64,000 nt of DNA from Boletus sp. NGJ (lineage: Eukaryota; Basidiomycota; Agaricomycetes; Boletales; Boletaceae): positions 186,001 through 250,000 of the forward strand of contig JAGTXK010000119.1 in the NCBI GenBank assembly GCA_019096195.1. Reading direction: 5' to 3'. Positions within the stretch are counted from its first letter, which is position 1. Each line of letters opens with the position of its first letter. Positions 17,972 through 51,331 of the stretch are shown here, in pieces. The position numbers and the translations under genes were made by a program. Under the pieces are notes generated by a model, which did not search any database, was not told the origin of the DNA, and worked only from the letters and a program-made list of their open reading frames with translations.

Positions 17972-20597
17972 TCAACGGTCGACTTCCTTCATCCTGACCC
18001 ACAGACCATCCTATGAACATACCCGATACATTTTAGCGATTCTGGCAAAGACATGTGATCGGAAGAAAAACGATCACCATACCTGGACATACATGGTCAA
18101 GTGTGACCTCAACAGGACCTTCTCCAATGCTTTGCGTCCCTTGGCCTGCGCCCAGTCTGCCGGAGAGAGGTGTTGCACATCCATGTCCAGCGAGACAGTA
18201 TCGATCGACTGCAAGAGTCGAATGAGGAAGTAAGAGACCTCGTGGTATGCGAACTAGATCCGTCGTCAGCCACACGCACGCACGCTTACAAAGAGTCGTT
18301 GACGTACCTGTTGACCAAGGCAGATACGAGGACCCGCGTTGAAAGGCAAGAAGATGAACGGATTTGGCGTCAGGTACTTGTTGAGACGTGCATCGAGGAA
18401 CCGATCTGGATCAAAGAGGTCCGCTAGAAATTATGGCGGTCGTGCGCGTGGGTCAAATGGTGCACGCTGACCATCTACTCTGTGAGGTGCTCACCATCGG
18501 GGCCCCACAGATCTTTCCTGCGGTGCATCAGGAAAACAGAGTACATGATTCTACAAATCGGGGTAAGATAGAACGGGAAGGGGGATCAGTTGGGCTCACA
18601 TCGTATTTGGGGGAATAAAAATGGGTTTTCCGCCATTCAATGCTGGCCAAACCTGTGCTTCAGTAGATAACCTGACGAATAATCAGGGGAACCAGCTGGA
18701 ATGAGGGGCCTGTATCGCACCTGACGTTAAAGGGGCTGCACGATATCAGAATCAATCATCCCTTTGAGAGAACAATAACTTACACAGGTGGATATAGGCG
18801 AAGAACCTCTGGTAGTGGCTCCATATCAGTACATATCTCTGCGAGGTGGCTACGAGTTGCGTACCGTTAATAAACGCCCTCAAATACTTCATGTCCCTCA
18901 TGTTGTCATGTGTCGGTCGGCTTGAGACACCGACATTGGCAATGATTTCCGCTCGCAAACGAGCGAGAACATCAGGATGCTGCGAGAGCATATAAACCCC
19001 AAACGTCAGTGTTGCGGCAGTCTACGTGTGATAACATGATCACGACGAATTCACCAGGTCATGCCGAGGAATCGGCTCACCGTATCCCTGCCAGCGATCA
19101 TGATATTCATCGTCTCGTCCCTGATAACCGTTTGATCTGAGGACACTTCAATACATCAAGCCCCACTCTCGAAAATGAAGATCACGACCTTCGGTGTAAT
19201 TCACCAGATGCGCCAATAATGTCTCTCCCTCCTCGACCTCCCCTGTGCTGTCCTTGACGTCAACACTTAGACGCCTTTGTTCGTGTTTTTTCGCGATCGC
19301 ATCCGCAATTAGGGGGTCAATGAATTCATGGCACACTTTCATGTGTTTCTGCACCTGATCCTGCCAAAACTTAGCGAAGCGCCAGGAAGACCCATACTGG
19401 GCGCGAGAGGCTGTGGCGATCTGCGCTTCAGTGAAGGCACGGACGAACCGATTGGCCGGATGATTGAGGAACGTGGGATCCTTGGACAGTGGGGACGAAG
19501 GTGGGTAGACGATGCCTGCTGAAAGGGAGCGGACGTCTTTTCCAAACAGGAACTCGGTCGCCGAATCGAGCGTGAAGCGAAATGCCACGTCTTGAAAGTC
19601 GACGGGATATCCTTCACGCAGGTGGATCTTCATCTGATGGATTGCAATCTTCGGCATGCCTTTCAAATATGTCAAAGTCGCTGATGCGATCTCTACTGAA
19701 GAACGGGCGGGTCATTGTGCGATGAAACCTGGAAAGCGTTTGTGAGCGGATGAGAAGACCGAGTCAACGTGCTGTGTACATACTTCCAGATGTCGGCTGC
19801 ACAAGCAATGAGTCCATAGGATACCATGTCTGCTTAAAATGATGCTCACCGTCAGAGTTAAAAACGCCTGTCCCCAAAAGAGAGTTGAATTGGTCATGGA
19901 AGATGGGACCTATGCAAGTTCTTTTAGCGTATCGGAGGATCTGCCACAACTTGGATGTATAGCCTCACCTTTTACAAACGATGGGAATTGCGTCGCAAGA
20001 ATCGTCTGGATTGTACCACACTTTACGTAGCTGAGAGCAAACGATCAGGAGGCGACCCACCTTGACGTATGTGGGCTCCGTGGTGAATATCTACAGGGAG
20101 CGGGCAGCTCGTATCAAACGTCTGTGCAACGACCAAAGAAGAACTTGCCCTATGCTCATACAGCAGGAAACAATCCAGCGTATTCCCAATTTCTTCACAT
20201 TCGCCCTCGATATATTCAGCTACATTTTACGCGTCAACACATCCGTGTTGGAGGAATAAAAGGCATAAATGAGCCTGCCTAGATAGCCATCACTGAAGTT
20301 CCGTACAAGGGCCGAAAGCTTGTCTAGCGCGCCAGGCCAGCGGTAGTTTATGCTCTGTGGAATGACTGCCCCGTGACGTGCCGCCTGTCTGCGCTCTCTG
20401 ATACGAGCATACAGAACACTTGCCACAAACGTGGCTGGTAGGGCCAAAAGATACGCTGGTACACGCAGCCATTGTGGTGCAGGTTGTCCAAGGAGTGCCT
20501 CATAAACTCGGAGGGTGATGTATACCGTCGTTGGTGCGAAGAACAGTCGAGGGACAAGCCGCACCAGCGCTACTAGTCCCGGCGGCAACTGTATCAT
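17972..20597 (-). pseudogene. Cytochrome P450 copy B (CYP63-like), one frameshift
   Basis: This is a tandem paralogue of copy A with the same exon pattern: membrane anchor ([19 protein letters not shown]), [39 protein letters not shown] and heme loop [12 protein letters not shown]. The one clear break is an extra base at about 19645-19648, where B reads GAAGATTGCAATCC and both other copies read GAAGATGCAATCC. That shifts the frame in the middle of a large exon. Everything else, including splice sites, looks functional, so the break may be recent or a sequencing error. The first intron has a GC donor (gcaggc) where A has GT; the intron before [10 protein letters not shown] has GT where A has GC. 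The 3' flank resembles that of copy A, supporting tandem duplication. Confidence 0.75.
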
Positions 20598-21105
20598 CGT
20601 AATGACACTAGGTCCAGTAAACTGCCAGGAGGAGAAGAAAAGGAGAATTTGCTCTGCAACTGACGTACGGTTGAAATGGCGTCCGCAGTACTTGACTCCG
20701 GCTGGACATCCCACCTGATTTTAAAGATCCAATTCAATTGAGTCACAAGCCGTTTTCATATCGCTGCGCATGCTAGTAGGCCGGAAGTGTCCAACAAGGA
20801 CCCCATAACTGCTCACGGTAGCATCCTTCCTAGTACCTCATCTCAGCTCATCTCATCTCATCAGAGTCAGTAAGCACATATCTGATGTGAATCAACAATA
20901 ATGTAAAGCTCGCGTGAAGGGCCCCTACCAAAATGGGCCCATCTTCATACCTGCCTCATCCAGCACGCTGCCCGTAGCCCGAACGCCTTCAATTCACTGT
21001 CAAGTGAAACAAATCTGTCTCCACTCGGAGTTCGGTACCTGTGATGATGCGGCTTGGCACGTTTCGCAGTTGGTCGGCAATATCCGGACACGGACCCCAA
21101 AAGTA
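20598..21105. other. Intergenic region between P450 B and the TIR element
   Basis: It contains a short CTCATCT-type microrepeat near 20838-20860 (CTCATCTCAGCTCATCTCAT). I see no gene. Confidence 0.4.
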
Positions 21106-22264
21106 CTGTAGCCGTCTGTATGGATGCAACCGGGTGGCGGTGCGTTACGGATACCCCTGACTCCGAGTTAGCAACCGGACCCCGCGTTATGTTGCTATTG
21201 TTAGTGTTAGATCATGACTGGACCGTTCTTCGGGCGTGAACTAGTCAAAAAGTATGACGGTCAAATTGCACAAATATTATTTGATAAAAAAAGGTTTGTC
21301 GTTTTTTCAGTTTCTTACACTAGTTTAATAATTCTTTACAGTTTTGGGCTCACTGCCAGGTCAAGGGATGGGATTTATCTGCAGAGTGTCTTACAAGTAG
21401 ACAAGCACAGACGGCTCTCATTGATTACCTTCGCACCCATTCGACACTCCACAAAGAGATCAAAGATCAAATGGGTATTGTCCATGGACTCAACAAGCTT
21501 GACTCAGTGGAGGATATCTGTCGTCACGGTGGCACCGAGTCGGACTATGTCACTGTTGATGCCGACGACGACGCCGATGTTCCATCAAGCGCGGTAATTC
21601 ACGATGCTCTTGGCTTAGCTGTGGTTGAGATGCCTGCTGCAGTAGACAGTGTCTCGCACTGTGTTGGGAGCACGGAAAAGGGTCCCAGCAATTCATTGGT
21701 GGCTGCAGGGGAGTATGAAGACATCTGGGCTTTTACTAACTTCGACGAATGCTTTTTTTTTTGGCCAATAGTCCCCCCGTTACGCGTTACTAATGAGTTC
21801 GAGCAAGGTCAGGACACCGCGCACTCCGGGCGCGTCTGTGCGATAAGGTCTCAGTCGTTGCGCTTCGGGCAGACGGACTGTGTATTTACCTGTGCGATAA
21901 GGTCTATGTACATAGTGATTAGACATGGTTTATGTAGGTATCGAGTGGTAACTGCTCACCTCAGTCGTTGCGCTTCGGGCAGACGGACTGAGGTGTCATT
22001 CTGGGTACACCGAGTTTTATATACGAAGGGTAAGAACAATAAAAGAGAAGTATCGTATGGCATCGAGTCGGCAAATGGACGCGACGGAGCATAGGGAATG
22101 AAGAATTATGTAGTAGAAACGTATACCGCGCGGTCGCGCAGTGCCTCAGCACCTTCCGTGCTCCCGGTTGACGTGCGGGTGACATGGTGACGTTTCACCG
22201 TGCGGCTGCGCGCGTGCTTGCTTGATTTCAACAGTTACGGTTGCATCCATACAGACGGCTACAG
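21106..22264. mobile_element. 1.16-kb DNA element with 27-bp TIRs and TA flanks
   Basis: Perfect 27-bp terminal inverted repeats (CTGTAGCCGTCTGTATGGAT...) lie at 21106-21132 and 22238-22264, each bordered by a TA dinucleotide (21104-21105 and 22265-22266). TA target duplication is typical of Tc1/mariner and some other DNA transposons. Inside, a frame at 21471-22094 and a possible first exon at 21214-21288 (MTGPFFGRELVKKYDGQIAQ) are open but show no DDE catalytic triad that I recognise. The 31-bp sequence CTCAGTCGTTGCGCTTCGGG... occurs twice in direct orientation (21850-21880 and 21960-21990). This looks like a non-autonomous element or one carrying captured coding sequence. Confidence 0.65.
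21214..22094 (+). CDS. Hypothetical ORF inside the TIR element
   Basis: A first segment (MTGPFFGRELVKKYDGQIAQ...FDKKR, 21214 to about 21293) precedes a candidate intron of about 49 nt (gtttgtcg...tttacag). The next open stretch reads FWAHCQVKGWDLSAECLTSR then LIDYLRTHSTLHKEIKDQMG and an acidic DADDDADV stretch. The phase across the splice is not settled. I do not recognise a family. The coding look is moderate, and it ends in repeats with poor coding character after about 21760. It may be a domesticated or captured fragment. Confidence 0.3.
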
Positions 22265-22266
22265 TA

Positions 22267-23326
22267 CATGACTGGCAGTTACCTACCCGTCGCCACCTGT
22301 CACTTTTTACAGACACATTTACAGATTACAGGTGGAGACCAGGTGCGGAAGGCGGTCACCAAGGGTCAGCGAACATCATGCACGTCTACGCGTAAGTATT
22401 GTCAATATATAAGCACTCGTTGTGTGGCTGGACATGTCAATCTACAAGGCTGTCATGTACAAAAAAAGGGCTGGCAGTCTAGCTGAAGATGGTTATGGAT
22501 ATCAGTCATGGGTATGTCGAGGCATCAGTATACACAAAAACGGGGTCGCAGTGCTATTGGCGTACGATTTTCGATAAGATATAATCCGCGGATCTGTTTC
22601 ACTGATAAGTACGCCACTCTCCTGGCAGTTCTCGTAACCAACAGTTGCCCGATTGTCGGCGCGCAGTTACTTGTAAATAACGTCTCTTGAACCGAGCAAT
22701 TCGCTGGCATAGCGAGGGGTGAATTGCCGGTTGTGGAAGTGGCCACCCAAGGGAAGCAAGTGGAAATGAAATCCCGTCACTTGCGCTCAATACTAGCGGC
22801 GGTTTCGACGTACCCCTTGGACTGACATCGATGACATTCAGAAGACCCTATTTGCGCGAGTCCTGACAACAACTGATCTTCGACGGTAAGTTACAAGTCT
22901 CATCTCGATAATTAGCCGCTTAGACCCAATACCCCTGGTGCCAAACTAGAGAACTATGTTATCTTTGCTAGCACATGGACGCCATGCGGTAACTCTAGAA
23001 GCAGTCCGGATGCCAGTCAAATAACAGAGAACACTCTCGTTAGATGGGCTGCATTAGCTGCTTTACGTGGTTCCTCTGTGGGGGGTCCGCCCTGGTCCAT
23101 TGACACCGCTTCCATCCAAGGTCAATGTGCCTCACCAGGTATGTCGGAAGCGCGTCGCAACGGCGACCGCCTGCATGTTTCACATACTAGCACGGTGGGT
23201 TCTTGCTCATCATTGGGCAAATGATTGTCTTATTCCCCAACACAGGGCCAAACTGGATGGGAGGCCCTGCATAAATAGTCTCCAGGTACTATTCCCTCGT
23301 GTAGCATCAACTTTTCTCCCTCCGAT
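22267..23326. promoter_or_regulatory. Upstream region and promoter of GH128 copy 1
   Basis: From about 23090 on, the sequence matches the upstream region of GH128 copy 2 in blocks (GCTTCCATCCAAGGTCAATG, CCAGGTATGTCG, GGTGGGTTCTTGCTCATC). A TATA-like CATAAATA near 23270 lies about 55 nt before the ATG, as in copy 2. Conserved blocks between the paralogues mark candidate control sites. Upstream of 23090 I see no gene. Confidence 0.6.
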
Positions 23327-24631
23327 ATGTTGTCTTCTGTCGTTGTCTTTCTCTCAGTATTTGCCGGTGCTGCTCAGGCAGGGAAGAGGGGTCTCTGTTG
23401 GCCTTGGTGTAAGGACGCAGCAAACATCTCTCCAACTCGTGATTGATTTTTTTTTCATTTTCTAGTCAATGCACCACTGTGCGATCGTTTCTGAGACTAT
23501 GTGTTCCCCATTCTCACTGACTAGCACAGGGACCCTGGAAAGTTCAACACTGGCGACGGTCAAGTAGTCGCCATGTATGTTGTTTCCAATCGAGCAGCTC
23601 CATTACTTATCCCATCCTTACCTCTAGTTATGACTACGAAACATACGCCCCACCCTCGAGCAATGGCAACGGTGGCCTCGCCTTCATCGGCATGCAGCGC
23701 TGCCTCGACTGCAGTTCCAGTCCTATCGCCGATCTCTATTCTCGCTGGCAATCCCAAGGCTGGGCGAGTACGTCTCTTCGTCAGTTCTCCTGTCATGCGT
23801 TATCTCATTGGTCACATATAGCCGTATTCACCTTGAACGAACCTGATCTCAACGGCATCACTGCTAGTCAGGCTGCTGCTTGGTACATCCAACACATCAA
23901 TCCTCTGGTAGGAACCTGTAGTCATATCGACAGGAGTGGCCGCTGATAGGAACGAAACAGCCTACCAAGAAGGCTCTTCCCGCCGTCAGTTCGAGCACGA
24001 ATCCTAGTGAAGGCTTGAATTGGCTCTCCGAAATCATGAGCGCCTGTAATGGCGAGTGCCAATACGACTACTGTAATATGGTAGGTGGAATTATGAATTG
24101 TATACTTGGTTGATAGCTCATTGATTGATCTGACCTGGGTTTGCCGGTAGCACTGGTACGGGTAAGCGAGAAGCTACTTATCTACCAAACCTTTTGCCTC
24201 ACGATACACGTCACCAGATCCTCGTTCGCAGAGTTCCAGAGTTACGTCGAATCCGCGCATACTCAGTTCCCCGTAAGCTGTCGTGATTGATGTTTGCATC
24301 CAAGACGTTGACGTTCTGATTCGATCAGTGTTGTCAATGGGTCATAACCGAGTTCGCTCTCCAGAACCCCTCTGGTGGTCAGGCAGATCAGTGAGTTTGT
24401 CCGTTTCATGCACAGCGATCTCTGACACGGCCTCCAAGGGTCACCTTCTTCCAGCAGGCATTCTCCTTCCTCGATAGTGCATCTTACGTGACACTCTACT
24501 TCCCATTCGTGGCCACCTCTCCAACCCTGCTCCAGCAAAATGACGCCTCTGCAGCTTCCTACGTTGGGACAGGGTCATGCTTGTACAATGACGACGGATC
24601 CCCATCTGCCGTTGGTAGTTCAATGATATAA
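23327..24631 (+). CDS. GH128 glycoside hydrolase (Asl1-like), copy 1
   Basis: Ten exons sum to 268 codons plus stop: 23327-23408, 23466-23478, 23530-23574, 23628-23767, 23822-23907, 23961-24080, 24151-24161, 24218-24272, 24329-24390, 24439-24631. GH128 enzymes are small secreted endo-beta-1,3-glucanases acting on fungal wall glucan. A signal peptide (MLSSVVVFLSVFAGAAQAGK) precedes RGLCWPWFNAPLDPGKF, VVAIYDYETYAPP, FIGMQRCLDCSSSPIADLYS, the acid-base segment TLNEPDLNG (NEP Glu), HWYG, and the nucleophile segment VITEFALQNPSGG. The frame needs two microexons, 13 nt (23466-23478) and 11 nt (24151-24161). It is an inverted paralogue of the gene at 36621-37914. Confidence 0.9.
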
Positions 24632-24931
24632 TGGTAGAACTGTGTTTAGTTTGTTCATTTTCCCGTAACTCCGGGACGTTGGGAGCTATGGGGCACGTAC
24701 CTTACAAAGTTGTGACCTTGTCCCCGGAAATTCTGGGGTTCATTCCAGTCCAAGTCACGGTCAGGCTACGCGAAGATATCTTGATCAGACGTGACCGAAA
24801 GAATACAATCGTGACATATTAGGGAAAAGACACTATCATCGTAGCAAAAGCATGAAAGGCGAGCAGAACAAAAGCGATGACATTCTACTACATGGATGAC
24901 AAGTCTTCGTTGTCTACTGAACCGTCCGAGT
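24632..24931. other. Convergent 3' flanks of GH128 copy 1 and actin
   Basis: Only 300 nt separate the two stop codons. I see no gene; the sequence is the shared 3' region. Confidence 0.6.
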
Positions 24932-26552
24932 TTAGAAGCACTCTGTGGGATGGGTGCGCCAGTCAAAGATGGGATCACGGGATAGTAAAAGACACTTACT
25001 GCGGTGAACGATACCAGGACCAGACTCGTCATACTCCTGCTTGGAGCACCACAAATTCTGGAAGGTACTAAGAGAGGCAAGGATAGAACCACCAATCCAG
25101 ACCGAGTATTTCCGCTCAGGTGGTGCGACAATCTTGACCTGTACAAGGGAATGAGACAACAATTAATTCAGCCCTCCGTCTGAACAACGCACCTTCATGC
25201 TTGAGGGTGAAAGTGATGTCAATTCCTTCTGCATCCGGTCCGCAATACCAGGGAACATGGTAGTACCACCAGAAAGGACGACATTGCCATACAGGTCACG
25301 GCGGATATCGAGATCACACTTGAAGATCGAGTTGTACCTGAATCAATACGGTCAAATGGAGAAGCGTTTCAAGCTGCGCCAAGAGACTTACGTGGTTTCG
25401 TGAATACCAGCCGCCTCAAGACCAAGGAAGGCTGGCTGGAAGAGAGCCTCAGGTGCACGGAACCTAGATAACCAAGGACTGAATGATATCATTGCCCTCT
25501 AAAGGATAAAGAACTGACCGTTCGTTGCCGATGGTAATTACTTGACCATCAGGAAGCTCGTAACTCTTTTCAAGAGCAGAAGATTGAGCAGCCGTCTGGA
25601 GTTCCTGCTCAAAATCGAGGGCCACGTAGCAGAGCTTCTCCTTGATGTCACGGACAATTTCACGTTCAGCGGTCGTCGTGAAGGAATAACCACGTTCGAT
25701 CAGGTTCTTGATCAAGTAGTCGGTCAAATCACGGCCAGCAAGGTCGAGACGGAGAATGGCGTGAGGAAGAGCAAAGCCCTCGTAAATGGGGACAGTGTGG
25801 GTAACACCATCACCAGAGTCCATAACGATACCAGTTGTACGGCCCGACGCATACAACGACAAGACGGCTTGGATGGCGACATAAAATGCAGGGGCGTTGA
25901 ATGTCTCAAACATGATCTGAGTCATCTTTTCACGGTTAGCTTTGGGGTTAAGGGGAGCCTCCGTAAGGAGAACGGGGTGTTCTTCTGGGGCGACACGGAG
26001 TTCATTGTAGAAAGTGTGGTGCCAGATCTTTTCCATGTCATCCCAGTTCGTTACGATACCGTGCTCAATCGGGTACTTCAAGGTGAGGATACCACGCTTC
26101 GACTGAGCTTCGTCTCTGCAAGACGCGAATAAGTAATATGACAAATTCGGTGATAAAACATAAACATACCCAACATAAGAGTCCTTCTGACCCATACCAA
26201 CCATCACACCTTGGTGACGGGGGCGACCGACAATAGAGCTGTCGATTTGCTATTAGATATTACCAATCGGAAACCCTTGACCACCTACGGGAACACGGCA
26301 CGGGGGGCATCGTCGCCTGAAAACGAGCAAGTTAGACGCGAAGCAAACTGTGGTAGGAATTGATCGGTGTACCAGCGACTATAGAAGCAGGTCAGCGGGC
26401 ATTTTGGAAAAGATTAGAAGTACTTACAGCCAGCCTTGCACATGCCGGAACCATTATCAATGACCTGATAAGTGATGAGGGATGAGGGCGTTGTCGATAC
26501 CGATGGAACGGAATGTTGAGCGACTTACGAGGGCAGCTACTTCGTCTTCCAT
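24932..26552 (-). CDS. ACT1: Actin
   Basis: ATG at 26552 ([20 protein letters not shown]) and TAA at 24932-24934 after the canonical GPGIVHRKCF end. The body carries the actin signatures [94 protein letters not shown] and [18 protein letters not shown]. The gene is intron-dense. Between KAG and DDAPRAVFP a 6-nt exon (26373-26378, TCGCTG) lies between introns 26379-26427 and 26317-26372 and supplies part of FAG. The last intron splits the Lys codon of RKCF. Actin is the cytoskeletal ATPase and is single copy in many fungi. Confidence 0.97.
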
Positions 26553-28046: not shown

Positions 28047-28159
28047 ACACTCGGAGCTTAGCATTAAGGAAATACCTCCCATCCTAATGTACAACAACAC
28101 TACTGGATCAATATCCTACATCTGTGTATCATTCTCCCAAAATCTGTCACCATTCCTGC

Positions 28160-29873
28160 TCAGATATCCGTACCAGGCCCCGCCACATCCTGTGGGCGAT
28201 ATACACCATGGAAACCGAAACCAACGATACACTCCATACTCGCTCTTCCCACCTCCTTCATGCTCTTTGCATCCAACACTAATAAATAGCTCCTTTCTGT
28301 TAAACCATCAAGCACGACGCTCAAAAGTACGCCGTCGTCTTCTGCGGTACCCTCGGGGTTGGGGACGAATATCGGCTCACCGGGGTTGTGTCCATGCACG
28401 GACCAGTACGTCGGCGTGTGGGTCTCCGTGTCGTACTTGACGATACCATCAAAGAACGTGCTCAAGCCACGGTCGCAGACGCCGTATATGTACCGCGAGG
28501 GTTTGGTGAGGAAGCGGGGATTGATGACGGGAAGGTCGCAAGAGTGGCCGTGCTCGGCAGTGTGCACTGTGACAGCTTCGCGAGCCTCTGATGGAGTGTC
28601 GATAGTAGTGTTGACGCCGGGTAACCGCCAGCGTCGCAAGAACACGTCACAGCTCCCACTGCGCTTTTCGCCTACGTAGTCGAGCGAGCCAGGAGAGGTG
28701 GATTTGATGCCATTGTAATAGAAGCGTCTTAAGACGTCGAGGTTCTCGTAGATTGAGAGGTCGGCGATGATATCTACTTGGGAGGGATCCGAGGGGGAAG
28801 GCTCCTCCCAGGCATTGATGGTGTGGAAACAGAAGAAAGGGTCGCATTCGTATGTGGCGACGACACCTTTACCGTGTTTGCGGTCGATGACATACCACAA
28901 AGCTTTGATCGACGAGTCAAATGGAGCAATGGCGTCAAGTAAGTTTTGCTCCCACAGGATCTTTGCGCCTCCCCACGAATACTGACCACTCCAGATACAC
29001 AGGATGAAGTAGTTCTCCGTGATCAGGGAAGAGTGCAAGTAAGCACCTGGCGCATCTATGATGGTTGCTATGATATCTGTCTTTCCCGTAGCAGCAGACA
29101 CGCGGAAGATCTTGTATATCTGCTGTCTGCCAAGAGCAAGGTTGTAATTAAATATGTCTCCAGTGACCGGGTCTGACTTGGCGTGAGCGGCAGAAAGGTT
29201 GCCAGTGAGTTCGGGATGAAGAACAGTTTGTGTGGCAAGACCCATGGGCTCAAGTGTCTCAGGATCGATTTCGCGCATATGAGCGGCATCTGTCTTGACC
29301 CAGAGAGACTGGATACCGGATGCATGACCCCCTTTCTTCGTCCCTTGGCTCGTATCAACATCTTTCAGACCAGGGGGGTTCACGGAGAGCGTGACACCGA
29401 CGTTGATTTGATCCTGAGGCGGCTGCGGTTCCGGAATGAACATGCTCATGACCTTCTTGAAGAAGCTGACACAAGGGTCACGCTTCTGGCCGAAGCTGAA
29501 ACCGGCCAACTTGCCGGTCTTGCGGATGTTCTCAATGAGCGGGTCGACACTTCGGCGAGAGTTGTATATGACGCGTGTGGAATCGTCAGACTGGATGATC
29601 TGGAAACGGTGGTTCTGCGAGAAGCCGTCGAACCAGTGGTCGATAGAGAAGGTTTTGCCGTTGTCGGCCGCTACTTGGTAGCCCCCAGGACCTGTTCGGT
29701 ACAGAGTACCTGAGACGTAGCGTGGGATGTTCCCGGAGATTTGGAGCTCGACAGGCTCTCTCTCCTCGTGAACGACGTCAAACTAGAGCATAATGCAGTC
29801 AGCAACGATGCGTGTCAAGAGGGACAGAACACACCCCCGCATCGTTGGGCCAGTCGTTGAACGGCTTGGACAT
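28160..29873 (-). CDS. Carotenoid oxygenase (RPE65/CCD family)
   Basis: ATG at 29873 (MSKPFNDWPNDAG), a single intron (about 29783-29834), then one long exon to the stop at 28160. These non-heme iron enzymes cleave carotenoids, apocarotenoids or related stilbenes. N-terminal family marks are EPVELQISGNIPRYVSGTLY and YRTGPGG, then DHWFDGFSQNHRFQI. The four iron-binding histidines can be placed: SAAHAKSD, AYLHSSL, FCFHTINAWEE and the C-terminal GFGFHGVY. Length (about 550 residues) suits fungal CarX/Cao-2-type enzymes. The substrate is not determinable. It is convergent with the hypothetical membrane protein; no carotenoid synthesis gene is in the window. Confidence 0.92.
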
Positions 29874-35915: not shown

Positions 35916-35977
35916 GTCATAGGGAACCGCCTCGAGTACGTTACCTCATTGAATTGAGAAAAACGGCCCTTGTTCAT

Positions 35978-36620: not shown

Positions 36621-37914
36621 CTAGTACATCAAGTTACCGACAGCAGATGGAGATCCATCGTCATTGTACAGGCATGACCCTGTCCCAACGGTGGTTACTG
36701 CAGCGGAGTCGTATGCACCAAGCAGGGATGGTGAGGTGGCCACGAATGGGAAGTAGAGTGTCACGTAAGATGCACTATCAAGGAAGGGGAATGCCTGCTG
36801 GAAGAAGGTGACCCTTGGAGGCCGTGTCAGAGATCGCTGTGCATGAAACGGACAAACTCACTGGTCTGCCTGACCACCAGAGGGGTTCTGGAGGGCGAAC
36901 TCGGTTACGACCAATTGATAATTCTTATGGAAGCAGTACGTCAACGTATTGGATGCAAACATCAACCACGACAGCTTACGGGGAACTGAGAATGCGCGGA
37001 TTCGACGTAACTCTGGAACTCTGCGAACGAGGATCTGGACGTGTATCGTGAGGCAAGATGTTTGGTAGATAAGTAGCTTCTCGCTTACCCGTACCAGTGC
37101 TACCGGCAACCAAGGTCAGATCAATGAGCTACCAATCAAAAGAATACAAAATTCCACCTACCAGATTAATATAGTCGAAGTAGCACTGGCCACCACAGGC
37201 GGAAACCATTTCGGAGAGCCAACTCAAGCCTTGGCCAGATGTCGTGCTCGAAGTGACGGCAGGAAGAGCCTTCTTGATGGTCTGTTTCGTTCCTATCAGC
37301 AACCATTCCCCGTCGATAGGACTGCAGGTTCCTACCAGAGGATTGATGTATTGGATGTACCAAGAAGCAGCCTGACTAGCAGTGATGCCGTTGATATCAG
37401 GTTCGTTCAAGGTGAATACGGCTATATGTGATCAATGAGATAACGCATGACAGGAGAACTGACGACGAAGAGACGTACTCGCCCAGCCTTGGGCTTGCCA
37501 GCGAGAATAGAGATCGGCAATAGGACTGGAACTGCAGTCGGTGCAGCGCTGCATGCCGATGAAGCCGAGGCCACCGTTGCCATTGGTCGAGGGTGGCGCG
37601 TATGTTTCGTAGTCATAACTAGAGGTAAGGATGGGATAAGTAATTGTGCTGCTCGATTGGAAACAACATACATAGCGACTACTTGACCGTCACCATTGTT
37701 GAACACTCCAGGGTCACTGTGCTAGTCAGTGAGAATGGGGGATATAGTCCAAGAAACGATCGCACAGAGGTGAATTGTCTAAAGAAGGAAAAGGTCAATC
37801 ACGGGCCGGGGAGACGTTTGCTGCGTCCTTACACCAAGTCCAGCAAAGACCCCTCTTTCCTGCCTGAGCAGCAGCGGCAAATATTGAGAGGAAGACAAGA
37901 GCAGAAGACAACAT
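36621..37914 (-). CDS. GH128 glycoside hydrolase (Asl1-like), copy 2
   Basis: Inverted paralogue of the gene at 23327-24631, same exon pattern. Signal peptide MLSSALVFLSIFAAAAQAGK, then RGLCWTWYNSPLDPGVFNNG, IYDYETYAPP, TLNEPDINGITASQAASW, KKALPAVTSSTTSGQGLSW, CYFDYIN, HWYG, and the nucleophile segment QLVVTEFALQNPSGGQADQ. The 13-nt microexon is 37766-37778 and the 11-nt exon is 37089-37099. It keeps Asn-Tyr-Gln before VVTEF where copy 1 has CCQW, so copy 2 looks closer to the family norm. Predicted secreted endo-beta-1,3-glucanase. A TATA-like CATAAATA sits upstream at about 37961-37968. Confidence 0.9.
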
Positions 37915-38576: not shown

Positions 38577-38645
38577 ATGTCGAGACGCGTCATCCAAGTC
38601 AACGACCAGCACAACTTAGCACTGAACGTCGACGAGGCCCAAAAA

Positions 38646-39805
38646 ATGCCTCTCGAAGCGACGATGATGATCATCGACAACTCAGAGTACATGAGAAATG
38701 GCGATTACACGCCGTCGAGATTCGATGCCCAGTCCGACGCCGTCAACACCATCTTCCAGACAAAGATCGACTCCAATCCAGAGAACACCGTCGGCCTCAT
38801 GACCATGGCTCACAAAGGGTACGTAAGTGTTCACCTCTCATCGTACACGGTGTACTCATCTCGTTCCCGTCCAGCCCAGAGGTCCTCGTGACCCATTCCA
38901 AAGACGTGGGTCAGATCCTCAAAGCGATCCATACCGCCACGTCCAAGATCGGTGGGTCGATAGACATTCCCACCGCTATCAACATTGCCCAGCTCGCACT
39001 TAAACACCGCGAAAACAAGAACCTCCGTCAGCGCATAATCGTCTTCGTTGGATCACCACTGCAGGGTGCAGGTGCAGACGAGCGAGAGATGGTCAAGCTT
39101 GCGAAAAAACTAAAGAAGAATAATGTGGCCATCGACTTTATCTCTTTTGGGGATGGTATCGAGGAGGGCGAGTCTAGCGTGCTCAAGTCGTTCGTCGACA
39201 ATGCTACCAGCGGCGATAACTCGTAAGTGCCGCTACGCTGGTCGGACCAACGAGTCTCTAACATGACATCCGGCATAGACATTTGGTGTCTGTGCCCCCA
39301 GGCCCACATCTACTTTCAGACTTCATATTGTCCTCACCCGTTTTGTCGGAGGATCGCGGAATACCACCAGAGGCTTTGGCCGGTGCAGCCGGTCCATCCG
39401 GTTCTGGTGGCGCAAACAACTTTGAGTTTGGGGTTGATCCTAGTCTGGATCCTGAACTTGCTATGGTAAAGTTATTGTGCTACGGGCACATGTATTTAGA
39501 TCTGATCGTGTTCGTAGGCATTACGAATGTCAATGGAAGAGGAGCAAGCGCGTCAAGCTGCCGAAGAACAAGCGCGCCAAGCAGCGACAAATGCTGCCGC
39601 CTCTTCCGAACACGCCGATGACGCTGCAGATGTCGACGCGGATGAGGAAGCTTTGCTACAACATGCGATAGCCATGTCCGAGGGTCGGGACGTTGACATG
39701 GGAGAGGAACAAGGCGACGACGATGAGATCGATGAGGAAGAGGCGATTGCTCAAGCTATCGAGATGAGTATGAAACAAGATCAAGGAGAACAGAAGAAAC
39801 AGTAG
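38646..39805 (+). CDS. RPN10: 26S proteasome ubiquitin receptor RPN10
   Basis: Exons 38646-38818, 38875-39222, 39279-39465 and 39518-39805 sum to 331 codons plus stop. RPN10 sits between base and lid of the 19S particle and binds polyubiquitin. The vWA domain is clear: [99 protein letters not shown] ubiquitin-interacting motif [20 protein letters not shown] spans the last intron, and a second Ala/Ile/Met-type motif ([15 protein letters not shown]) is near the C terminus. Confidence 0.96.
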
Positions 39806-40149
39806 CAGGTCGTGGTTCTTTACCCCGGTGCTGGTGACCCAGATGACTATTGTACTTTCGCCAGTATATATTTTCCTTTGACTACGAATTACATCGGAAA
39901 GTCGATTTGCTGATTCGGATCTACAATCTTCTCAAGTGCACCAATAGATCTCAAACCAACAGTGTCTGTGGTGTACATTTCTGCTACGGGGGTACCGTTT
40001 CTGCCTGTGTTGTGGTACCACCTGTTCGCCCAACTCGGTAATGTAAAGTACCGAGCGTCAACTCGTTCTCGAACACGTAGACCTCTTTATCACACTGTCT
40101 AAGATTGAAGAAAATCCGGGAAGCAAGGACGCTATGGATCGCCACCTGA
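39806..40149. other. Convergent intergenic region
   Basis: 3' flanks of RPN10 and of the second DUF6533 gene. No gene seen. Confidence 0.4.
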
Positions 40150-42626: not shown

Positions 42627-44280
42627 ATGTCTCCAGTTCCGTCTGTCGCTACTGCTCTTGTGCTCTCACCCACCGCTCGTTCCGTTGGTCTTGACCCAGA
42701 CTCGGCTGGGCAGTCTGCTTGGGTAGTATCGCAGCATCTCGGGACAGGTGGCCTGTTGTTCGCCGTAGTCGCCATTTTCTCGGTTGCGGGCTACTTCTAC
42801 CATGGACGAGGGGAAGCCAGCAGTACCCGGACGAGCAGCACCTGGGCCTCCTTGAGTAGTTTCTTGTCGTCTATGCGTCACCGTGGTTCGGCTCCAACCT
42901 CCACGGCAACTACTGCAACTGACTGGCCTGTTGATCTGGAGGTCGGTCCTGAGGTGAGTTGGACATGTGCATGCTCTTCGTTTGAGCTGACACGTCCCCA
43001 GCACCACGTCAGTATGGTCTATGCGAAATTCTTTCATCCGACATTCTGGAATGTAAGTAGACTAAATTTCGCATCATAGATGTTTTTCTAATAGTTGTAC
43101 ACAGCTCGTGGAATGTCATCCTGCGACGCCTTCCACCCCGGCAATCTATGTGGAAGACGAAACGAATGAGATTCCAGTGTCTGACCCGATAGCGCCCGGC
43201 GTGAGTTCGTTCTTGGACATGGACGACGACGGCGGCGGCGCCGATGCCAATGGCGACAGCCCCCAGCGTACATCTCAGGAACCGGAGCGAGGTGCGAGGC
43301 CCAGAGTTGAAGAGTTTCCGCCCTACGACACGAGCTCGCCGATTGAGGTTAGTTTCACCAGCAAGGTCATCGGTACGACGGCTCGTCCGGGCGCATTCCT
43401 TTCCGTTCCGGGGGAGCTTGAAGATGATTCATCTGAGAGCTTGTCATCCGATTCCGGGCTGGATTTCTCCTGTTCAGCTTACGATGGGATCTCGATGTCG
43501 CCGCCAAGGTCATCCTCCAGTACCCGACGACACGGTATGGCTGACATGGGACACCTCGTCCAGGGTCTGAAGGATACGATTCCGGAAGAGGGTTACGACT
43601 TGGTACCCACGATCTCTTGCCGAAATGGATTGCTCGATGTCTCGGTGCTCTTAGAGACGGATCCAGCCATGTCTTGCGGGCCCCTGGAACGGGTAGAGCC
43701 CGTGGACGATGATGAGCCGACTGCTACGAACTGCGATATCGGTGTCCACGATAACCGCGGCGACTTGCAGAGCAGTTGGAGCGATGCCGACACCCTTGTA
43801 GCCCCTCACGAGGGTGTGGACCTAATGCGGAGACTCCTTGCGGAACTTCGGGACCCCAGCTTGGACTGCAGTCCTCGAGCCCTCTCCGAAGACAGCGACA
43901 TCGAGCATTCCGACGATGACGATGACGAGGCAGCAGTTCCGCCCCTCACACCTACGCGGCGTCTTCATGGTGTGAGGCGAAACTCGCCTGAGTCGACTTC
44001 TTCCACTCCTACAACCGGTGACGATGTGTCTGAGGAGGGACCGATCTATCCCTTGACTCCGCCTCCGAGGTCTGCTCTGGCCAGCATTGCCGATATCCAC
44101 AAGGCTCGAATGGCGCCACCTGTCACACCTTGGTTCAAGAAGGAAGTGCAAGCCATGTCGCCCGTGTTTTCGGAGTCGCCTCCTTCGTTACCAACCAAGG
44201 CCTACGTCCGGACTCACAGGGATACTCGTTTGCTGTTATATGGACCGCGCTTGCCTCTGGTGGCCTTACCTCGCCTCTGA
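42627..44280 (+). CDS. Single-pass membrane protein with long acidic tail, unknown function
   Basis: Three exons (42627 to about 42953, about 43003-43051, about 43106-44280). After a short N-terminal segment there is one helix (GGLLFAVVAIFSVAGYFYHG) and a Ser/Thr-rich juxtamembrane region. The second exon contributes HHVSMVYAKFFHPTFWN. The rest (about 400 residues) is acidic and disordered, with Asp runs (DMDDDGGGADANGD, DIEHSDDDDDEAA), Pro-directed sites (PLTPTR, PLTPPPR) and a conserved-looking end (RMAPPVTPWFKKEVQ). The SP/TP density suggests CDK or MAPK targeting, which is inference. No family recognised. Confidence 0.65.
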
Positions 44281-45600
44281 GGTACCCAGATGGTCACTAT
44301 ACTCGATCATCTCCACATTCCAACTATTGTCACTCGTTTACATTTTGGTTTCCAGGCCAATTCCAACTATCGTCTCTCGTTTGTTAGGTTTCTGGTATGC
44401 TTCCCCCCTTCTTTTCTAACGACCGTTTCTGACGTAGTATCAAATATTGTCAGCAGTAGCCCCGTCCTTGCACAGTCCCGTTTGCATTTGGTCTTTGTTA
44501 CTTCATATGGTACGCTCTGGTATTCTTCCTGCTAACTGTTCAACGCAATTTACACAATCAGGTTTCTTGTGGTACGATTGCCACTCGTCGGCATGTCTCG
44601 TGATCTGTATTAGGTGTGGAATTGGTTTCTGTTGCTTCATATGGTACATCCTGATATTCCTCTCCTGACCCTTTAACACAAGTTTAACCGTCACACTCAG
44701 GTTTCTTGTGGTTCGATCCCAAACGATCGTCACCCTTTGCATTTGGCCTGTCTCGTAGTCTGCATCAGGTATGGAATGTTAACGTTCTCGTTACCCTTGA
44801 TGTTCGCCGGCATATTGAACGATTTCGCTTAGTTTCGTGTCAACTATTGTCGCCCATTTGGATTCGGTATGTAAATCTTACTTCCCCTCCGATTATTCTT
44901 CTGACGTCGTTCTCACAGCGGTATCGGTATTGTCTCGGTCAGAAAATTCACGACAAAGCTATTGGATGACATGTGTGGACTCAACAATATTCCTTCGACG
45001 ACACTGCAAACTAGCTCACCCTGATCCGAACTTGGCACTGCTCAGCCGTTTATTACCCTATCTCATTTTCTCCCCGGATGCGACTTGCGGTTTAACGCCC
45101 ATTTCGATGTGGTTGGATACCCCATTTCGCGTCTGTTGACCCCCTTCCTCTTCCCGAAGTGCTCGAGCAGTGTGCGTTCGTCTTCCGAGCTTGGATCTCG
45201 GCCTCGTGCATGTTAACTTTGCTCTCGGTCACCCACCTTCAGCCGTTGGACTCGAACCTCGAAACGTCCGCCGTTCTCTCCTTCCCGTCAAACGAAGGGT
45301 ATGCCTGGCGACATCTAGCCAATTCACGGTGGTCCTATTACCGTTGTACGTTTGGCTGGACATTTTTTTGAGGTACGAGCACTGGCGCGGCAACTTGACA
45401 TGTGACACGAGCTCAGCTTTGCAGTGGTATGGTCTGTTTACGCGTGCAGCCATCTGTCGTCCGCGTGTCTTTCCATAGCTGTTGTCGTACCAAAACCCCC
45501 CCAAAAAAACACACAAAATTTATTAAACCCAACGAGCATCGGAATGTGGTCCTGGAACGCAGACTCACAGGTTTTCACTTCACTTAGCGGGTGGCAACTT
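44281..45600. repeat. Pyrimidine-rich region with a degenerate tandem repeat
   Basis: Between about 44500 and 44790 a unit of roughly 135-150 nt occurs twice, imperfectly: CTTCATATGGTAC...GGTATTC, then CAGGTTTCTTGTGGTACGAT, then TCTCGT..TCTG.ATTAGGTGTGGAAT. Both copies share these blocks in order. The surrounding sequence is T/C-rich with no credible gene. Confidence 0.5.
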
Positions 45601-45609
45601 TGCCATTTC

Positions 45610-46087
45610 AGGTGAGAACGATGAAGACGCTCAGGGCGGTGAGGATGTTGGATTTGTGCAAGATAAAGGACCAGAACATGAAACACTGGAACTAGCGGGA
45701 GGTCAGCCCTCAGCCCCCGTGAAACACCTTCCATGCCAAGAGAGTGGCCCAACCCCATCCATGGCGGATAACAGATGGATCCAAAAGTACCAAGCGAAGC
45801 AGATGCCCTCAGTACGTCAACTGAGAGGTGAGCGCTTGAGCGCTGACATGGACAGCCGCTTGCTCATGAGAAAGGGGTTCGATCGCGACGCAAAAAAGTA
45901 ATCGTCTGACTTGGTGCCATAGCTGGGACGAAAAATGGAAGGCTCCGAGTCTATCCTGCACGAGAGTGCATCCCCCCAGATTGCAACACACGGCACAGCA
46001 AACGATATGGCAGCTACTGACGATGAGAGGACTGGCACTCCTGGGGATGCGGGGACTTGTGGCACTGCGTCAACAGTAACGATCTAA
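45610..46087 (+). CDS. Possible C-terminal gene fragment
   Basis: Two open stretches look like an acidic cytoplasmic tail. About 45611-45902 reads GENDEDAQGGEDVGFVQDKG then KYQAKQMPSVRQLRGERLSA; after a possible splice, about 45928-46087 reads KMEGSESILHESASPQIATH ending TASTVTI before a TAA. The intervening 25-nt gap is too short for a normal intron and no 5' part is recognised. It may be the remnant of a membrane protein gene. Confidence 0.25.
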
Positions 46088-47064
46088 ACTGGAGGTGGGC
46101 ACGATTGGCAAGAATGATGATAGCATTAGCTGCCAAGTGTATCAGTGGTTATTGAACCCTAGGACTGGTGGCATAATTAAAGTGCGTCCCGGCTCGCCGA
46201 CGTCAAAACACCTCTTCGGATTGGCCTAGTTCATCCGCGTAACGCACGTCTGCCAGTGCCGGGCCTGACCCCAATGTACCTGCCAACATCGTCAAAATAT
46301 CTGTACACTGAGAACGTAGTGTGGTTGAGATATCTTCGCGTAACACGGCAGTGGCATCTCAGGCTGAATCCTACTTTGAGTACTTATAGTTCCTTTCGCG
46401 ACCTCAGTGTCTCAAATGTGATGACAGCACCTCAGTACCAGTTTCAAGTGGATCCCCCTTTCTACTGCACAGGACTGTCAGAGAAACAAGGGTAAGTATT
46501 TGTCTCGCCGCCCCCTTGCAAGGCAGCTATGTTCTAAGGATTCTCACACCTCGGCGAACAAACACCGGACCCAGCGAGTGTGGGTTGACACCAACCCGTA
46601 CCACCTGCGGTATGATCGACTCATCGCGCACATGCTAAGAGGCTCCAACTTGACCTGACTAGCTGAGTTGGAGGACAGTTACTTCGAAGTATTTTTGTTT
46701 TCTTCTGCTAGATGACAAATAAGATCATCCGATGACACCGTAACGTGATATATCATACATCTGAAAGGTGGTATGTAACGTTATCGCTAGACGGCTCTAC
46801 CGCAGGCCTTCGAGAATTATGATTGGAGGACGGCTGGTAAAAAAAGGAAATTTACAGCATGGACCTAAGCTATGCTGGATACGGTCACCTAAAAGGTGCC
46901 ATTTTGGCTCGCTAAACCCGGTCCCAGATTGTAGATGTACCTCCCCGAGTAGCAGATTGACAGGTAGCACTCGCCAATGGTTTCGTAAACCAGGTTCTCG
47001 GTTCACGACGTTGGTAAGCTCACTCCAGGAATGACAAGTTATGCCCATGACAATTGACCAGAGG
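46088..47064. other. Intergenic region
   Basis: No gene recognised. The end leads into the promoter of the small secreted peptide gene. Confidence 0.4.
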
Positions 47065-47073
47065 GTATAAAAG
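47065..47073 (+). promoter_or_regulatory. TATA box of the small secreted peptide gene
   Basis: GTATAAAAGGGGGC lies about 75 nt before the ATG at 47145 and is followed by a CT-rich leader with CATCTTCGCAAAG. This is the strongest TATA element in the window. Confidence 0.65.
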
Positions 47074-47144
47074 GGGGCACTCTATGCCATGAGTCTTATC
47101 TTTTTTTCATAGTATATCCCTCGCACATCTTCGCAAAGCCAGTC

Positions 47145-47400
47145 ATGCAGTTCCCTGCCATCATTTTACTTTTTGCCGCTGCTGCTGCCATCGCTGCTCC
47201 AGTGCGTTATCTTTTTAAATTCTCTGGAATGACGTGATTGTGTTCGGTGGGACTGATGGGTTCGATTTTTATTAGGCCTCCAACGATTTCACGGAACGCA
47301 CTCCAGAAGTTGTCGAACGCGTATGTCTCGATCCTATACATACTAGTATCTGTGCACCATTTTGCTTACGCTTTCATTACAGGGTCCCCCTGATTGGTAA
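47145..47400 (+). CDS. Tiny secreted peptide precursor (39 aa)
   Basis: Three phase-0 exons (47145-47201, 47276-47320, 47383-47400) separated by GT-AG introns of 74 and 62 nt. Exon 1 encodes a signal peptide (MQFPAIILLFAAAAAIAAP). Exon 2 encodes ASNDFTERTPEVVER. Exon 3 encodes only GPPDW and the stop. A strong TATA box and normal introns support a transcribed gene. The layout of signal, spacer ending in Arg and short C-terminal peptide resembles a processed peptide precursor, but no dibasic KR site and no CaaX box are present, so it is not a standard basidiomycete pheromone or Kex2 repeat precursor. Function unknown. Confidence 0.55.
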
Positions 47401-48703
47401 TCGAAGATAACCGCGAGCCTGAGACGTTATCCTGAATATCTTTGTCTTGATTGTGAGTGCTATCTTCAACCGCCGTCTCGTCCTCGGCTTAGGCGGTTTT
47501 GAGTTTTATCGCTTTCAAACGACGCAGAATGTTGGTACCTGCGACAAGAATCTTACATCTTATCTTTCAAAAAACAAGTCTGTTTATCCTCCCACAGTGT
47601 ATCTTTCTAGGCTGTGCAGAGGCTTTTTACGAGGTTAGAAATATGACGGGGTAGCACTGCCACACAGATTAAGTGTAGAAAGGAAGATGGAGTGTGTTGG
47701 ATCCTTGTAGACCCTCGTCTCGAAAATCACAACAAAGGCTTGCATATTTTTTCCCCCCTTACGCTAGGACCTCTCAAGGGAATCATTGACACATACAAAC
47801 GACCGGTACCACTGGAAGCTACAAAACGTGAACAACATGCCAATACGGACTTGGTAGTACTACCTGCCCCGGGCCGGGCTATACCCGCAATCAAATCAGT
47901 AGATATCTTGCGCACCATCACTCCGAGGCTCTCTAGCAGCGAAGCAGCACCAATTCAGCCTCTCTGCGCTCGCCGTGTCACCAAACCCTCTGCTCGACTA
48001 ACAGTGATGCAACTTCTCTCGCCGTCATCCGACCATTCTCGACCACTAGGGGGGCCGCCTTCTTCAGGCTTTACCTACATACAATTTTTTCTTCCGCACC
48101 CCTCGCATCCATAACACTCATGTCGTCGAAGAGTTGGCGCATGGTTGCTTGTGCTGTTCAGCCCCGACCCAAGCCGCCAACGCGGTTGTTATCTATTTCA
48201 AAAATTTTCATCATTCATCACGCGACACTGTGTCGTCGTCTCCCATCACAGTTTCCATCTTGCGGTTTGACATTCGTGTCACATCGTGTCATAGCGTTGC
48301 CTGAGCACACGATACCTTTTCTCGTACCCTTTGCCCTTTGTCGTACTGTATAAGAGAGACCGCTCGTTATCGCAGCACCTCCGTCCGTTGCTTATCGCGC
48401 ACGACGACTGAGTCGAACACTTCGATAGTTCGATAGCCGTCGCTTGCTGTCCATTCTTTTAGCCTTTAGTGCTAGCGTCACTGCATTACAACTCGAATAT
48501 ACTTCTTTTCTACTCGCTATCTTAGAATGGGTACAGTACCTAAGTAATATATCCAGGTACATAATCCCAAGTTTATTTTTATTGCAGGAACAAACTGAGC
48601 TAATAGCCGACTCTGTTACCAACTCTTCTTACAGCTTATTAGAGCTACCCAACTGGTTTTTCGAAACACCCCCCAGCAGGCTGCGGAGCTTAGCATTGCG
48701 ACG
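47401..48703. promoter_or_regulatory. Intergenic region and P450 C upstream region
   Basis: A 140-codon frame at 47692-48114 lacks family features. A TATA-like GTATAAGAG at 48348 and the motif AGCAGGCTGCGGAGCTTAGC just before 48704 (shared with P450 A) mark the promoter side of copy C. Confidence 0.45.
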
Positions 48704-51331
48704 ATGCAGTTACCGCCCGGACTAATAGCGCTGGTGCGGCTTCTCCCTCGACTGGTTTTCGCACCAACGACGGTGTACATCAGCCTCCGAGTTTACGAGG
48801 CACTCCTTGGACAACCTGCATCACAATGGCTACGCGTGCCAGCGTATCTTTTGGCATTACCAGCCACATTTGCTGCAAGTATTTTGTATGCTCATATCAG
48901 AGAGCGCAGACAAGCGGCACGTCACGGGGCAGTTATTCCACAGAGCATAAACTACCGCTGGCCTGGCGCGCTAGACAAGCTTTCGGCCCTTGTACGGAAC
49001 TTCAGTGATGGCTATTTAGGCAGGCTCATTTATCCATTTTGCTCCTCCAACACGGATGTGTTGACGCGTAGAACCTTTAGCTGAATATATTGAGGGCGAA
49101 TGCAAAGAAATTGGGAATACACTGGATTTTTTCCTGCTATATGAACACAGGGCGAGTTCTTCTTTGGTCGTTGCACAGATGTTTGATACGAGCTGCGCGC
49201 TCCGTGTAGATATTGACCACGGAGCCCACATACGTCAAGGTGTGTCGCCTCCTGATCGTTTGCTCTCAGCTACGTAAAGTGTGGTACAATCCAGACGATT
49301 CTTGCGACGCAATTCCCATCGTTTGTGAAAGGTGAGGCTATACATCCAAGTTGTGGCAGATCCTCCGATACGCTAAAAGAACTTGCATAGGTCCCATCTT
49401 CCATGACCAATTCAACTCTCTTTTGGGGACAGGCGTTTTTAACTCTGACGGTGAGCATCATTTTAAGTAGACATGGTATCCTATGGACTCATTGCTTGTG
49501 CAGCCGACATCTGGAAGTATGTACACAGCACGTTGACTCGGTCTTCTCATCCGCTCACAAACGCTTTCCAGGTTTCATCGCACAATGACCCGCCCGTTCT
49601 TCAGTAGAGATCGCATCAGCGACTTTGACATATTTGAAAGGCATGCCGAAGATGCAATCCATCAGATGAAGATCCGCCTGCGTGAAGGATATCCCGTCGA
49701 CTTTCAAGACGTGGCATTTCGTTTTACGCTCGATTCGGCGACCGAGTTTTTGTTTGGAAAGGACGTCCGCTCCCTTTCGACAGGCATCGTCTACCCACCT
49801 TCGTCCCCACTGTCCAAGGACCCACGTTCCTCAATCATCCGGCCAATCGGTTCGCCCGTGCCTTCACTGAAGCGCAGATCGCCACAGCCAATCGCATCAA
49901 CCATGGGTCTTCCTGGCGCTTCGCTGAGTTTTGGCGAGATCAAGTGCAGAAGCACATGAAGGTTTGCTACGAATTCATTGACCCTATAATTGTAAATGCG
50001 CTTGCGAAGAAGTACGAACAAAGGCGTCTAGGTGTTAACGGCAAGGACAGCACGGGGGATGTCCAAGAGGGAGAGACACTATTGGCGCATCTGGTGAATT
50101 ACACCGAAGGTCGTGATCTTCATTTTCGGGGTGGGGCTTGATGTATTGAAGTGTCCTCAGATCAAACGGTTATCAGGGACGAGACGATGAATATCATGAT
50201 CGCTGGCAGGGATACGGTGAGCCGATTCCTCGGCATGACCTGGTGAATTCGTCGTGATCATGTTATCACACGTAGACTGCCGCAACACTGACGTTTGGGG
50301 TTTATATGCTTTCTCAGCATCCTGATGTTCTCGCTCGTTTGCGAGCGGAAATCATTGCCAATGTCGGTGTCTCAAGCCGACCGACACATGACAACATGAG
50401 GGACATGAAGTATTTGAGGGCGTTTATTAACGGTACGCAACTCGTAGCCACCTCGCAGAGATATGTACTGATATAGAGCCACTACCAGAGGTTCTTCGCC
50501 TATATCCACCTGTGTAAGTTATTATTCTCTCGAAGGGATGATTGATTCTGATATCGTGCAGCCCCTTTAACGTCAGGTGCGATACGGGCCCCTCATTCCA
50601 GCTGCTTCCCCTGATTGTTCGTCAGGTTATCTACTGAAGCACAGGTTTGGCCAGCATTGAATGGCGGAAAACCCATTTTTATTCCCCCAAATACGATGTG
50701 AGCCCAACTGATCCCCCTTCCCGTTCTATCTTACCCCGATTTGTAGAACCATGTACTCTGTTTTCTTGATGCACCGCAGGAAAGATCTGTGGGGCCCGGA
50801 TGGTGAGCACCTCACAGAGTAGATGGTCAGCGTGCACCATTTGACCCACGCGCACGACCGCCATAATTTCTAGCGGACCTCTTTGATCCAGATCGGTTCC
50901 TCGATGCACGTCTCAACGAGTACCTGACGCCAAATCCGTTCATCTTCTTGCCTTTCAACGCGGGTCCTCGTATCTGCCTTGGTCAACAGGTACGTCAACG
51001 ACTCTTTGTAAGCGTGCGTGCGTGTGGCTGACGACGGATCTAGTTCGCATACCACGAGGTCTCTTACTTCCTCATTCGACTCTTGCAGTCGATCGATACT
51101 GTCTCGCTGGACATGGATGTGCAACACCTCCCTCCGGCGGACTGGGCGCAGGCCAAGGGACGCAAAGCATGGGAGAAGGTCCTGTTGAGGTCACACTTGA
51201 CCATGTATGTCCAGGTATGGTGATCGTTTTTCTTCCGATCGCATGTCTTTGCCAGAATCGCTAAAATGTATGTTTATAGGATGGTCTGTGGGTCAGGATG
51301 AAGGAAGCCGACCCCGTCGAATCTACGTAAC
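48704..51331 (+). pseudogene. Cytochrome P450 copy C (CYP63-like), one frameshift
   Basis: Inverted paralogue of copies A and B, closest to B. Anchor [88 protein letters not shown] and heme loop [12 protein letters not shown] are all present, ending ADPVEST before TAA at 51329-51331. One base is missing at about 49820 (GGACCCACG where B has GGATCCCACG), which shifts the frame before NHPANRF. Splice sites appear functional; the first two introns use GC donors (gcaggc, gcgagt). With a single indel, a recent loss or a sequence error are both possible. Confidence 0.75.

Follow-up and report, generated by a model that had tools for sequence, protein, structure and literature searches.

Mosaic P450 genes and an inverted GH128 gene pair in Boletus sp. 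NGJ suggest old duplications later patched by ectopic gene conversion

In the basidiomycete Phanerochaete chrysosporium, the CYP63 genes form a tandem cytochrome P450 cluster for which the main text of the report gives proteins of 571-603 amino acids (aa), 6-14 introns and GT/AG splice junctions (PMC1184071); the term "gene conversion" has 0 occurrences in that main text. In the human Y palindrome P6, gene conversion between the inverted arms has been described (PMC3723533). Here, we analyzed a locus of Boletus sp. NGJ that resembles both systems and differs from both (GCA_019096195.1, contig JAGTXK010000119.1, positions 186,001-250,000; the whole 64,000-nt stretch is called the window, and its contig is labelled C65). 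It holds three CYP63-like P450 genes (A, B and C) and two genes for cell-wall glucanases of family GH128 (GH128-1 and GH128-2). In our best explanation, to which we give a probability of roughly 0.7, the P450 and GH128 genes go back to old duplications that are alike in silent age, and were later patched by ectopic gene conversion.

Self-blastn of the window revealed a mirror order, with P450 B (-) and GH128-1 (+) facing GH128-2 (-) and P450 C (+). P450 B and C are inverted with respect to each other (17966-20604 against 51326-48694) and share 95.2% DNA identity over 2643 positions, and the GH128 copies are likewise inverted (23257-24681 against 37980-36570; 87.0% over 1433), in agreement with the inverted paralogy of both pairs reported in a preliminary description of this DNA. 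The remaining gene, P450 A (14177-16804), forms a direct tandem pair with B (86.4%) and is inverted relative to C (85.0%). P450 C is located 28 kb from the A/B tandem pair, and the GH128 copies are 12 kb apart. DNA searches of the assembly (32.8 Mb, 141 contigs) retrieved the same copies alone, plus one 91-bp match of 76% to a P450 on contig C41.

Over the whole genes, the synonymous distance (dS) was 0.130 for B-C (confidence interval [CI] 0.094-0.171; 589 of 591 codons), against 0.275 for A-B and 0.338 for A-C (590 codons each). The preliminary description considered B and C to be closer to each other than to A, which was upheld for the motifs LGQQ and TEPTYVK and for the splice-donor states of introns 1 and 12, but not for exon 1, where B is A-like. 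Two near-identical tracts account for most, but not all, of the closeness of B to C. Tract 1 (18009-19167, minus strand; partner 50130-51281) covers exons 8-15 with their introns and has 18 differences in 1151 compared positions, and tract 2 (19624-20063, minus strand; partner 49237-49675) has 3 in 438. Inside these tracts (about 1.2 and 0.44 kb) the B-C dS was 0.030 (CI 0.010-0.056) as compared with 0.237 (0.167-0.325) outside, intervals that are descriptive since the tracts were chosen from the alignment. The A-C dS in the same parts was 0.426 and 0.268, respectively. In exon 1, B is closer to its tandem neighbour A (dS 0.059, against 0.215 for B-C), and the corresponding A/B tract (20276-20611, minus strand; partner 16476-16808) has 13 differences in 332 positions, versus 28/332 for B/C. 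When both the tracts and exon 1 are set aside, the three pairs are about equally distant (A-B 0.226, A-C 0.272, B-C 0.252). Along the alignment, B/C identity was 91.6% (columns 105-440), 91.1% (440-660), 99.3% (660-1100), 90.6% (1100-1557) and 98.4% (1557-2735). In the same five segments A/C identity was 90.7, 86.8, 85.3, 89.0 and 84.9%, and A/B identity reached 96.1% in columns 105-440 and 85-91% in the others.

Introns 4, 6, 8, 12, 13 and 14 had 0 differences between B and C, and A differed from both by 7-22 per intron. Because most introns display the same mosaic pattern as the exons, protein constraint does not explain it. The 382 gap-free polymorphic P450 sites comprised 271 with B=C, 71 with A=B, 39 with A=C and 1 at which all differ. 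When these sites were permuted, significance was reached by the longest runs of B=C (40 sites; P 1e-4) and of A=B (8 sites; P 5.5e-4), and A=C runs were as expected (P 0.99). In a 3SEQ-like test with 20,000 shuffles, B came out as a recombinant of A and C (P 5e-5 in either direction) and A did not come out as a recombinant (P 0.58 and 0.36). P450 C was also significant as a child (P 0.01 and 5e-5), which is expected if the tracts are common to B and C. The P450s present bounded tracts of high identity, introns included, inside divergent paralogues, the pattern expected of ectopic gene conversion, and we infer that such conversion explains much of the likeness of B and C.

The two GH128 genes are intact, with 10 exons and 268 aa each. 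GH128-1 (23327-24631, plus strand) and GH128-2 (36621-37914, minus strand) carry the PF11790 domain (E values of 8.5e-35 and 5.6e-37), and GH128-2 closely matches a solved GH128 structure, PDB 6ub2 (E 1.9e-125), one of the set 6ub2-6ub6 that we take to be of the Lentinula type. Both copies keep NEPD and [T/S]EFAL, presumably the catalytic Glu motifs of GH128. The pair dS was 0.192 overall (CI 0.128-0.267; 268 codons), 0.056 (CI 0.013-0.121; 115 codons) in exons 4, 5, 7, 8 and 9, and 0.301 (0.192-0.446; 147 codons) in exons 1, 2, 3, 6 and 10, these exon groups having been formed after inspection with intron-split codons omitted. The introns ranged from 0/48 (intron 9) to 11/54 differences (intron 1). 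Of 512 neutral sites, 53 differ, and they are clustered according to the window variance (8.6 versus 3.4 expected; P 0.0012), one of the two tests of clustering to reach significance.

We also compared both copies with 6ub2 at 248 aligned sites, after dropping 4 gapped residues and with the first 16 residues unaligned. A total of 29 changes were private to GH128-1 and 4 to GH128-2, 43 were common to both copies, and 13 sites differed in all three sequences. Twelve of the GH128-1 changes fall in exon 6 (23961-24080 versus 37281-37162), where none is private to GH128-2 and 4 sites differ in all; between the copies, this exon has a non-synonymous distance (dN) of 0.279 versus a dS of 0.227. GH128-1 is by these counts the faster-changing copy, diverged in patches, and its exon 6 may reflect either relaxed constraint or diversification. 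Based on the 29 versus 4 private changes, GH128-2 appears to be the conserved copy, which suggests that it is parental and GH128-1 derived.

In our best explanation, old duplications would have given rise to three P450s (A and B in tandem, C inverted) and two inverted GH128 genes, with a dS of about 0.23-0.30 outside the tracts. Break repair using a paralogue as the template would then have replaced patches of one copy by the other, that is, by ectopic gene conversion. Such events would have involved B and C, leaving tracts of about 0.44 and 1.2 kb across the inverted repeat, as well as the tandem neighbours A and B (exon 1) and probably also the GH128 pair, in shorter patches. P450 B would be a chimera with an A-like start and a C-like end, and, judging from this one genome, tract copying would span inverted partners 12-31 kb apart.

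Several observations weigh against this explanation. The P450 tracts and the GH128 exon groups were both picked after the pattern was seen. Around intron 7, all three P450s are nearly the same, any two differing at 1-2 of 51-52 positions. Introns 1-2 differ at 10/117 positions for B-C versus 17/114 for A-B and favour B with C, so that B and C may be true sisters. The A-C dS varies too (0.268 outside and 0.426 inside the tracts, with overlapping CIs), and the equidistance outside the tracts may therefore partly reflect older exchange or constraint. For GH128, the longest identical run of neutral sites was not significant (54 versus a mean of 40.6; P 0.10) and intron 8, between two homogenised exons, differs at 6/56 positions, which makes the GH128 genes the weaker evidence for conversion. 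Finally, the nested mirror order is itself a prediction of a single inverted duplication.

Such a duplication was the proposal of the preliminary description: one head-to-head P450-GH128 unit copied inverted, after which arm 2 was split or arm 1 shrank. With conversion on top, it is the alternative that survives best, possible but unproven and, in our opinion, rather unlikely. Both genes are paralogous and in mirror order, as a copied two-gene unit would be, the dS of the two pairs outside the tracts overlap (0.237 and 0.301), and a GH128 upstream block is common to both arms, where 22801-23211 (plus strand) could be aligned with 38561-38136 (minus strand), as had been stated. However, in arm 2 this block lies between GH128-2 and a VWA-domain gene, presumably RPN10-like as the preliminary description named it, and ends beside the latter. 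GH128-2 (ATG at 37914) is head to head with this gene, whose presumed start Met (38646) is 732 bp away, and the alignment stops 85 bp short of this Met and 16 bp short of a second in-frame Met at 38577. P450 C starts about 10 kb further on, past the RPN10-like gene, and the earlier view that the arm 2 genes diverge from one shared intergenic region was not confirmed.

Past the upstream block nothing aligned between the arms (P 0.79), and the GH128 5' flank itself was easily found (lax score of 84 versus a shuffle maximum of 19 under the same scoring). In arm 1, the gap between P450 B and GH128-1 is 2.65 kb long and holds a terminal inverted repeat (TIR) element. The 1039 bp of this gap that are free of transposable elements had no convincing counterpart among five chunks of the arm 2 gap in two orientations (10 comparisons with 60-100 shuffles each; best P 0.03, next 0.066, both uncorrected). 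The middle of arm 1 would be expected to persist in a split arm 2, and some of the arm 2 middle in a shrunk arm 1; neither was seen, and so neither event has left a trace. The intergenic DNA, which copying of a single unit should leave homologous between the arms, aligned in the GH128 5' block alone, and the whole middle of one arm must have been replaced later for the unit to hold. The silent ages outside the tracts (B/C 0.237, GH128 0.301) are similar, but A-B (0.226, exon 1 omitted) and A-C (0.272) are about as old. The comparison of dS that had been suggested as a check did not fail, either over whole genes (B/C 0.130 versus GH128 0.192) or in the less-homogenised parts (0.237 versus 0.301). 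It nevertheless cannot discriminate, because A-B and A-C have a like dS and conversion reset parts of the pairs. As the alignments stand, homology appears confined to two separate blocks, one copied unit is not supported, and we infer that the P450 and GH128 genes were not copied as one adjacent unit.

A somewhat less probable history is a direct tandem duplication after which the distal segment was inverted locally, perhaps via crossing-over between P450 copies. It concerns orientation and is compatible with old duplications followed by conversion, which it does not exclude. P450 A and B do form a direct tandem pair with a common 3' flank and, judging from the map, flipping 36.5-51.4 kb would give the direct order P450-GH128 ... 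P450-GH128. Nevertheless, in a single assembly neither an inversion breakpoint nor a polymorphism is visible, and the lack of intergenic homology argues against the copying of any unit. In the 3' flank, B matches C for about 70 bp (56/65) and, further out, A for about 140 bp (97/131), both exceeding all 300 shuffles; the A-C match (95/137) was narrowly above the shuffles, in the lax test only. In the 5' flank, A-C alone among the P450 pairs (35/40) was above the shuffles, the A-B and B-C matches being not above them. This pattern would fit B as a tandem duplicate of A with a C-like body, although, given the upstream A-C match, the flanks alone do not settle the order of events.

It is improbable that B and C derive from a recent inverted duplication (true dS about 0.03) whose divergent parts were overwritten by A or by lost paralogues. 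The near-identity of A and B in exon 1 (dS 0.059) makes exchange between these two genes likely, but in columns 1100-1557 the B-A differences (41/457) are about equal to those of B-C (43/455), and A is no recent donor there. In addition, a recent segmental copy would be expected to reach further than the flanks of B and C agree, which is for about 70 bp downstream of the gene, with no significant match upstream. More speculatively still, the P450 B/C and GH128 arms might constitute a long-lived, self-repairing inverted repeat in which conversion, acting again and again over 12-31 kb, homogenises certain exons and leaves others to diversify, gives rise to chimeric P450s and now and then inverts the segment of about 28 kb between the arms that bears the RPN10-like gene. 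Although contig C22 of the same assembly carries a long inverted repeat whose arms match perfectly, mirror copies produced by mis-assembly or haplotype folding are very improbable here, as such copies would be near-identical and those of the window differ by 5-13%, with a consistent splice structure and different flanks.

One model with 16 exons and 15 small introns fits the three P450 genes. P450 A (14169-16794, minus strand) is intact in this splice model and encodes 591 aa with a P450 domain (PF00067, E 4.1e-65). The domain, a length within about 571-603 aa and microexons agree with CYP63, while the models have 15 introns and a few GC donors, against the 6-14 introns and GT/AG junctions reported. 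The CYP63 label is a lead drawn from size, introns and motifs; formal membership would call for more than 40% identity to a named CYP63 member. P450 B (17972-20597, minus strand) and P450 C (48704-51330, plus strand) have the same 16-exon structure, each ending at the stop in the frame of A. Exon 7 measures 539 nt in A, 540 in B (19189-19728; +1 indel) and 538 in C (49572-50109; -1 indel), and A alone reads through as given, B and C being blocked by these indels. The two indels differ, that of B lying inside tract 2 and that of C somewhat past it. B and C may be young pseudogenes, or the indels may be consensus errors.

The TIR element of arm 1, already noted in the preliminary description, was located at 21103-22267. 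Its 30-bp inverted ends (CTGTAGCC...GGCTACAG) lie between TA and TA, and a second element of 443 bp is nested inside it (21791-22233), with GTTAC on both sides. Each has many matches in the genome; that the nested element is solo-LTR-like (LTR, long terminal repeat) is a guess. In arm 2, the N-terminal VWA exons of the RPN10-like gene were placed at 38646-39221 (plus strand), with start and exon ends presumed; a search of the assembly with its first exon gave a single match. A DUF6533-like open reading frame is also found between GH128-2 and P450 C (E 1.4e-4, below the curated cut-off). Between the GH128 copies, we observed an open frame resembling RPE65/carotenoid oxygenases (28163-29782, minus strand; 540 aa without a stop).

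Elsewhere in the assembly, GH128 family hits were obtained on C22 and C124 in addition to C65, with no other P450-GH128 neighbourhood among the matches listed. This search worked exon by exon and missed GH128-1 itself, and more distant copies are possible. None of the 58 P450 A protein matches listed was on C22 or C124 (74 of 80 candidates scored). As outgroups, the GH128 genes on C22 and C124 were too distant, with short tblastn matches only and no blastn match to the window at E 1e-3. The P450s on C41 and C5 are real relatives that were judged, from protein identity, too far for silent sites. Contig C22 contains a very large inverted repeat (about 170000-316532; 9769 bp at 100%) with GH128 hits on both arms. 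Five of six sampled 501-bp pairs (170, 190, 215, 225 and 235 kb) were 100% identical, and the sixth (150 kb), whose first 20 letters are shifted by one base, had no in-register match. The calculated centre of this repeat does not itself form a palindrome, and the repeat is possibly an assembly fold-back. For the contig pairs C10/C125 and C35/C50, the hits agreed exactly or almost exactly in score and length, which suggests haplotigs that were retained or duplicates of recent origin.

In the open-access literature searched, we came across no account of this locus, nor of conversion in genes resembling CYP63, but an Aspergillus paper (PMC5307856) contains both "CYP63" and "gene conversion". Tandem CYP63 clusters and conversion between inverted arms are already known, and the locus is a further fungal example. 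Copies in fungal gene clusters that look like sisters can in fact be mosaics made by conversion, and common motifs and whole-gene dS can mislead about the origin of a cluster. Should conversion still be active between these inverted arms, its rate and tract length could be measured at this locus. As in the P. chrysosporium CYP63 cluster (PMC1184071), we found a protein size (591 aa) within the range, many short introns with microexons, and tandem paralogues sharing one intron layout. Unlike that cluster, the Boletus genes are mosaic copies, with one paralogue lying inverted at a distance of 28 kb, and their models have 15 introns with some GC donors. GH128-2 resembles the GH128 endo-beta-1,3-glucanase of PDB 6ub2-6ub6, to which it aligns over residues 17-268 (E 1.9e-125); here, in contrast, the gene is duplicated in inverted orientation and copy 1 has diverged in patches. 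Finally, as described for human Y palindrome P6 (PMC3723533), inverted copies are kept alike in tracts of kilobase order, whereas the arms in Boletus sp. NGJ are gene-sized, far apart and patchy in their likeness, rather than above 99.9% throughout.

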